Positions 4,130 through 4,165 of a DNA stretch of 64,000 nucleotides are shown one piece after another. This stretch comes from Halapricum desulfuricans (GTDB lineage Archaea; Halobacteriota; Halobacteria; Halobacteriales; Haloarculaceae), in the NCBI RefSeq assembly GCF_017094505.1, contig NZ_CP064787.1, forward strand, positions 930,001 to 994,000, read 5' to 3'. How positions within the stretch are numbered: position 1 is the stretch's first letter; each line of letters begins with the position of its first letter. The position numbers and the translations under genes were made by a program. The notes beneath the pieces are model-generated. The model had not been told where the DNA came from. It worked only from the letters and a program-made list of their open reading frames with translations, and did not search any database.

Positions 4130-4165
4130 CATCGTCTACCTCCTTCAATCCCTTTGAGTTCGTCT
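4130..4165 (-). other. CRISPR spacer that itself resembles a CRISPR repeat
   Basis: This 36-base spacer lies between two perfect repeats and has normal spacer length, so it is not a decayed repeat. Read on the minus strand it starts AGACGAACTCAAAGGG and continues ATTGAAGG. Apart from the centre it matches the host repeat (AGACGAAC, then AGGGATTGAAG), and 13 unrelated bases follow. That is the layout expected of the inner part of a repeat plus the beginning of the next spacer in another haloarchaeal array. Confidence 0.75.

Follow-up and report, generated by a model that had tools for sequence, protein, structure and literature searches.

A repeat-like spacer in a haloarchaeal type I-B CRISPR array as a possible memory of a repeat mimic on a mobile element

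Results

A complete type I-B locus with a single array

The window, that is, the whole stretch of 64,000 nucleotides of Halapricum desulfuricans DNA analysed here, carries a CRISPR array and an adjacent set of cas genes, both on the minus strand (Table 1). The gene set is complete in the order cas6-cas8b-cas7-cas5-cas3-cas4-cas1-cas2 and includes the signature proteins of type I-B, to which the locus is assigned. No other array in the genome (2.94 Mb) has this repeat, and the five further genomes of the genus contain no such array.

Several spacers have features of their own. Spacer 24 (5831-5865) resembles a tRNA gene's 3' end, GGGTTCAATTCCCACCGGCCCA, which may be the attachment site of an integrating element, and spacer 67 (3023-3057) is an inverted repeat, GTAGTTGT...ACAACTAC. 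At positions 2115-2214 and 2245-2406 of the window, spacers 80 and 81 are identical and spacers 77 and 79 have 33 bases in common; homologues of spacer 80 at 88-91% are present in several haloarchaeal genomes.

Table 1. Coordinates of the features discussed, in the window or, for the last seven rows, on viral contig IMGVR_UViG_3300025333_000002
Feature	Position	Strand	Remarks
CRISPR array	515..about 7400	-	106 repeats GTTCCAGACGAACCCTTGAGGGATTGAAGC; 105 spacers, each 33-37 bases long; leader-proximal end near 7400
Spacer 50, repeat-like	4130..4165	-	minus-strand sequence AGACGAACTCAAAGGGATTGAAGGAGGTAGACGATG
Tail of spacer 50	4130..4142	-	13 bases, GAGGTAGACGATG
Repeat-like part of spacer 50	4143..4165	-	first 23 bases; one-gap alignment to positions 6-29 of the repeat
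Variant repeat, the only one in the array	5998..6027	-	GTTAC instead of GTTCC
Presumed leader	7401..7532	-	cas2 to first repeat; inferred from position
cas2	7533..7793	-	Pfam PF09827
cas1b	7795..8823	-	TIGR03641, above cut-off
cas4	8793..9344	-	TIGR00372
cas3 (HD nuclease and helicase)	9464..12295	-	TIGR01596, PF18019, PF22590
cas5b	12320..13117	-	TIGR02592
cas7/csh2	13137..14162	-	TIGR02590
cas8b/csh1	14184..16352	-	TIGR02591
cas6	16349..17167	-	TIGR01877
Repeat-like unit	3229-3258	-	
Repeat-like unit	3526-3555	-	
Repeat-like unit	4212-4241	+	
Repeat-like unit	6471-6500	+	
Repeat-like unit	6877-6906	+	
Repeat-like unit	8052-8081	-	
Repeat-like unit	8864-8893	-	

Spacer 50 resembles the repeat of its own array

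The fiftieth of the 105 spacers is, as the original prediction had described it, a full-length spacer of 36 bases between two perfect 30-base repeats; its length and its intact flanking repeats are those of an ordinary type I-B spacer. Its minus-strand sequence has AGACGAAC and AGGGATTGAAG in common with the host repeat, and our alignment agrees with the predicted pattern of matching ends and a different centre: 8 identical bases are followed by a divergent centre that is 1 base shorter in the spacer, and then by 11 identical bases, with base 1 of the spacer opposite base 6 of the repeat. The 13 bases that follow had been called unrelated. They are present; together with the preceding base, however, they read GGAGGT, five bases (AGACG) and ATG, which looks like a Shine-Dalgarno sequence with a start codon. 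Two forward frames are open through the spacer, one of which reads DELKGIEGGRR. The tail matches no start of a spacer in the host array (best 8 of 12 or 13 bases).

The local score of spacer 50 against the host repeat is 15, a value reached by 4 of 300,000 shuffles of the spacer, which corresponds to about 1e-5 per spacer (about 1 in 75,000) and to about 1 in 1,000 when all 105 spacers of the array are taken into account. Arrays of this repeat family gave 340 distinct spacers, of which no more than two exceed a score of 11: spacer 50 and a spacer of a second haloarchaeal genome, G068, which scores 18; the same spacers scored against the reversed repeat reach a maximum of 10. Apart from the repeat-like units of one virus, every TTC-preceded 36-mer in 256 kb of DNA from haloarchaea and their viruses scores 13 or less. 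By these comparisons, the likeness of spacer 50 to the repeat probably exceeds chance and is meaningful.

A second repeat-like spacer in the same register

When 391 genomes were scanned for spacers that begin with AGACGAAC directly after the end of a repeat, two matches lay in arrays, one in the window and the other in G068. The latter, spacer 59 (AGACGAACTCCCGTGAGGTAGATGGATCTAGATCATG), starts just after TTC, at the same repeat base as spacer 50. It is identical to the repeat of its own genome at 21 of 25 bases, and none of 300,000 shuffles reached its score of 18, making it a stronger case than spacer 50. Its first 10 bases match all G068 repeats behind TTC and the mismatches begin at base 11, so that weak binding of this spacer to the repeats of its own array is conceivable. 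An apparent homology between the tails of the two spacers, equalled by 0.8% of shuffles, was too weak to use. Spacers 58 and 66 of the G068 array are related to each other and encode a motif like LGHSD/LGHLD, as found in tyrosine integrases; spacer 58 adjoins the repeat-like spacer 59.

A serious rival to a meaningful likeness is chance resemblance. Spacer 50 would then be an ordinary spacer taken from the junction of two genes on a virus or plasmid: the upstream gene would end in DELKGIEGGRR and a stop, GGAGGT would be a Shine-Dalgarno sequence, and ATG would open the downstream gene. Purine-rich sequence and common Asp-Glu codons would have helped an accidental likeness to arise. The open frame and the GGAGGT-AGACG-ATG ending are what such a junction predicts, and in the DNA of the window outside the array GACGAAC is enriched about 8-fold. 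In addition, the exact core 18-mer AACTCAAAGGGATTGAAG is present in four viral contigs that are unrelated, each with one frame reading LKGIE, while an exact 21-mer match in Hydrocarboniphaga reads NDELKGIEK; the core of spacer 50 can thus arise from common protein sequence. On the other hand, a score of 15 is as rare in shuffles as given above and is absent from ordinary TTC-preceded 36-mers of the 256 kb, and the alignment register is the same as in G068. The tail decides neither way, since a mimic co-transcribed with a gene has also been described (PMC10651486). We regard the gene junction as the less probable origin, at somewhat better than a one-in-four level of belief.

Searches for the protospacer and for a foreign repeat

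No exact or near-exact protospacer of spacer 50 was found in the 391 haloarchaeal genomes, GTDB representatives, IMG/VR, phages or plasmids, and a pattern search of the host's own genome to 3 mismatches found no source. A back-translated search with DELKGIEGGR gave no match. The PAM with the seed, an 18-mer, was found in six IMG/VR contigs that have one sequence in common (44-46% GC); these were rejected as a source, being without a repeat. The original prediction held that the source was the CRISPR repeat of a rival organism, and had itself named the lack of any known repeat containing GACGAACTCAAAGGGATTGAA as evidence against this. No such repeat was present in the GTDB genomes, IMG/VR, phages, plasmids or the 391 haloarchaeal genomes, and within these collections the claim was not upheld. 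The sole exact match, the Hydrocarboniphaga 21-mer, belongs to an ordinary gene and was rejected as a source repeat.

Spacers derived from a repeat in the opposite orientation were likewise searched for in the arrays of 272 genomes. Three matches were returned, none of which (0 of 3, judged by eye) lay inside an array, so that no such spacer was found, a result that counts in favour of the mimic origin proposed below. Spacers of this orientation should target their own host, because TTC is there present in the host's own repeats too.

Two sets of degenerate or foreign repeats were observed during these searches. A decayed array in another genome (G384:C5) has repeats that differ widely, mostly in the centre, with GTTTC mostly kept. 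Long arrays of the GTTTCAGACG repeat are present on five IMG/VR contigs of viral class, which may be proviruses, plasmids or host DNA that was classed wrongly.

Such arrays bear on the version of events closest to the original prediction, in which the protospacer was a repeat-spacer junction of a foreign GTTTC array in a mating partner, plasmid or virus, and spacer 50 would confer immunity against a rival CRISPR locus. Of those on the IMG/VR contigs, one ends in GAAGG like spacer 50, the degenerate GTTTC repeats of the G384 array have altered centres, one of them shortened, and spacers that match cas genes have been described in archaea (PMC3285040). Against this stand the search results, in which no array with a repeat like that in spacer 50 was found in the collections named above, and the tail, which resembles a gene start and is unlike the beginning of any host spacer. 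A foreign array is in our judgement an improbable source, behind a gene junction.

Repeat-like units on a haloviral contig

With the sequence of G068 spacer 59 as query, a contig of 70,466 bp (IMGVR_UViG_3300025333_000002) was found in IMG/VR; it is a metagenome assembly and distantly similar to Halorubrum tailed viruses. G068 spacers match this contig perfectly (spacers 9 and 68), with 3 mismatches (spacer 20) and with 6 mismatches (spacer 57), and a Halorubrum tailed virus (OP630575) is matched by G068 spacers 46 (perfectly) and 63 (1 mismatch).

The first 16 kb of the contig contain seven repeat-like units (at most 10 of 30 mismatches), where 0.13 are expected. One is a complete repeat with 1 mismatch and the others cover mainly the 3' half (Table 1). 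Three of the seven have an ATG, the start of a gene, at a fixed distance of 44 bases downstream, with a promoter-like TTAAG stretch in between. Viral repeat units beside genes are a known arrangement, and in racrIC1-acrIC5 a repeat mimic and a gene lie in one transcript (PMC10651486); the dispersed units on this contig are a possible anti-CRISPR island. The best match found to G068 spacer 59 is one of these units, at 24 of 28 bases, which is better than the repeat of G068 itself. Because GCT and not TTC precedes this unit, and several bases differ, it can be no more than related to the source. The link between G068 spacer 59 and this virus family is suggestive.

TTC and TCC at the start of the repeat

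The original prediction had spacer 50 start directly after the TTC of a GTTTC-type repeat. Part of this gained support: the register recurs in the second haloarchaeon, and TTC precedes four of five good G068 protospacers (0-3 mismatches, two virus records; the fifth has TTT). In the related system of Haloarcula hispanica, TTC is the established PAM (PMC3936756); for the lost protospacer of spacer 50 it is the putative one. For the host's spacers, all of which were compared with phages and 242 genomes, no convincing protospacer was found, only weak homologues that gave no PAM signal. The host repeat begins with GTTCC in 105 of its 106 copies and with GTTAC in one, so that TCC occupies the PAM position, as had been predicted.

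These data also bear on whether spacer 50 could have been taken from the host's own array, as a repeat copy that had mutated. The 19 bases that match in two blocks would be explained in this way; the array, however, holds one substitution across 106 repeats, as against a changed and shortened centre in spacer 50, the host repeats have no TTC on this strand, the tail is without a match to any host spacer start, and the pattern search of the genome found no source at up to 3 mismatches. This origin, already disfavoured, is very improbable.

Discussion

The parallel in G068 and the viral units favour a solitary mimic over a rival's array as the source of spacer 50, and such a mimic on a virus is the more economical of the two. 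Judged by analogy with these cases, there is about an even chance that spacer 50 is the memory of a solitary CRISPR-repeat-like unit, a mimic of the GTTTC type, on a mobile element, which was probably a virus. The evidence suggests that G068 spacer 59 was likewise captured from a repeat mimic on a mobile element and not from the array of a rival.

For the capture of spacer 50, its targeting and the escape of the host array, we infer the following course. A mobile element would have carried a solitary mimic of a GTTTC-type haloarchaeal repeat, and the type I-B adaptation machinery would have taken the 36 bases after the TTC inside it. The crRNA of spacer 50 would then direct Cascade and Cas3 to the putative mimic in an invader, and the 106 repeats of the host would be spared because TCC stands at their PAM position and their match to the crRNA breaks off after the first 8 bases.

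Several known systems resemble parts of this proposal. Racr elements (Camara-Wilpert et al. 2023, PMC10651486) are viral look-alikes of repeats without cas genes, sometimes co-transcribed with a small gene; here, by contrast, it is a host spacer that shows the likeness. The corresponding unit, whose repeat type is that of haloarchaeal I-B systems, is known by analogy alone, through the virus contig linked to G068, and its inhibitory role is putative. The degenerate repeats of CreTA in haloarchaeal type I-B systems (PMC9458426, PMC8501985) also lie outside arrays and combine a TTC PAM with partial matching by Cascade, but those modules are tied to the cas genes of their own host, whereas spacer 50 sits inside the array. 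Archaeal spacers against other CRISPR-Cas loci (PMC3285040) are similar in that CRISPR memory is aimed at CRISPR-related DNA; as described there, they match cas genes or flanking DNA and not the repeat. Archaeal viruses also carry mini-CRISPR arrays and, as proviruses, I-B systems (reviewed in PMC11656645; PMC12596717). These are repeat elements that a host could sample, but they have spacers or cas genes and serve conflicts between viruses. Our literature search, which covered mainly freely accessible papers, found no report of spacers against repeats.

As a general principle, it is only a tentative proposal that haloarchaeal arrays can be turned on viral mimics, which are putative RNA anti-CRISPRs, by way of the TTC within the mimic, and that a host with TCC repeats keeps such a spacer without attacking itself. 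If spacer 50 does stem from a viral look-alike, it would be a host's answer to viruses that use mimics of the CRISPR repeat against immunity. A spacer of this origin carries a risk of self-attack, as its target resembles the host's own repeats, and the PAM inside the repeat, TTC or TCC, would then decide which hosts may hold it.
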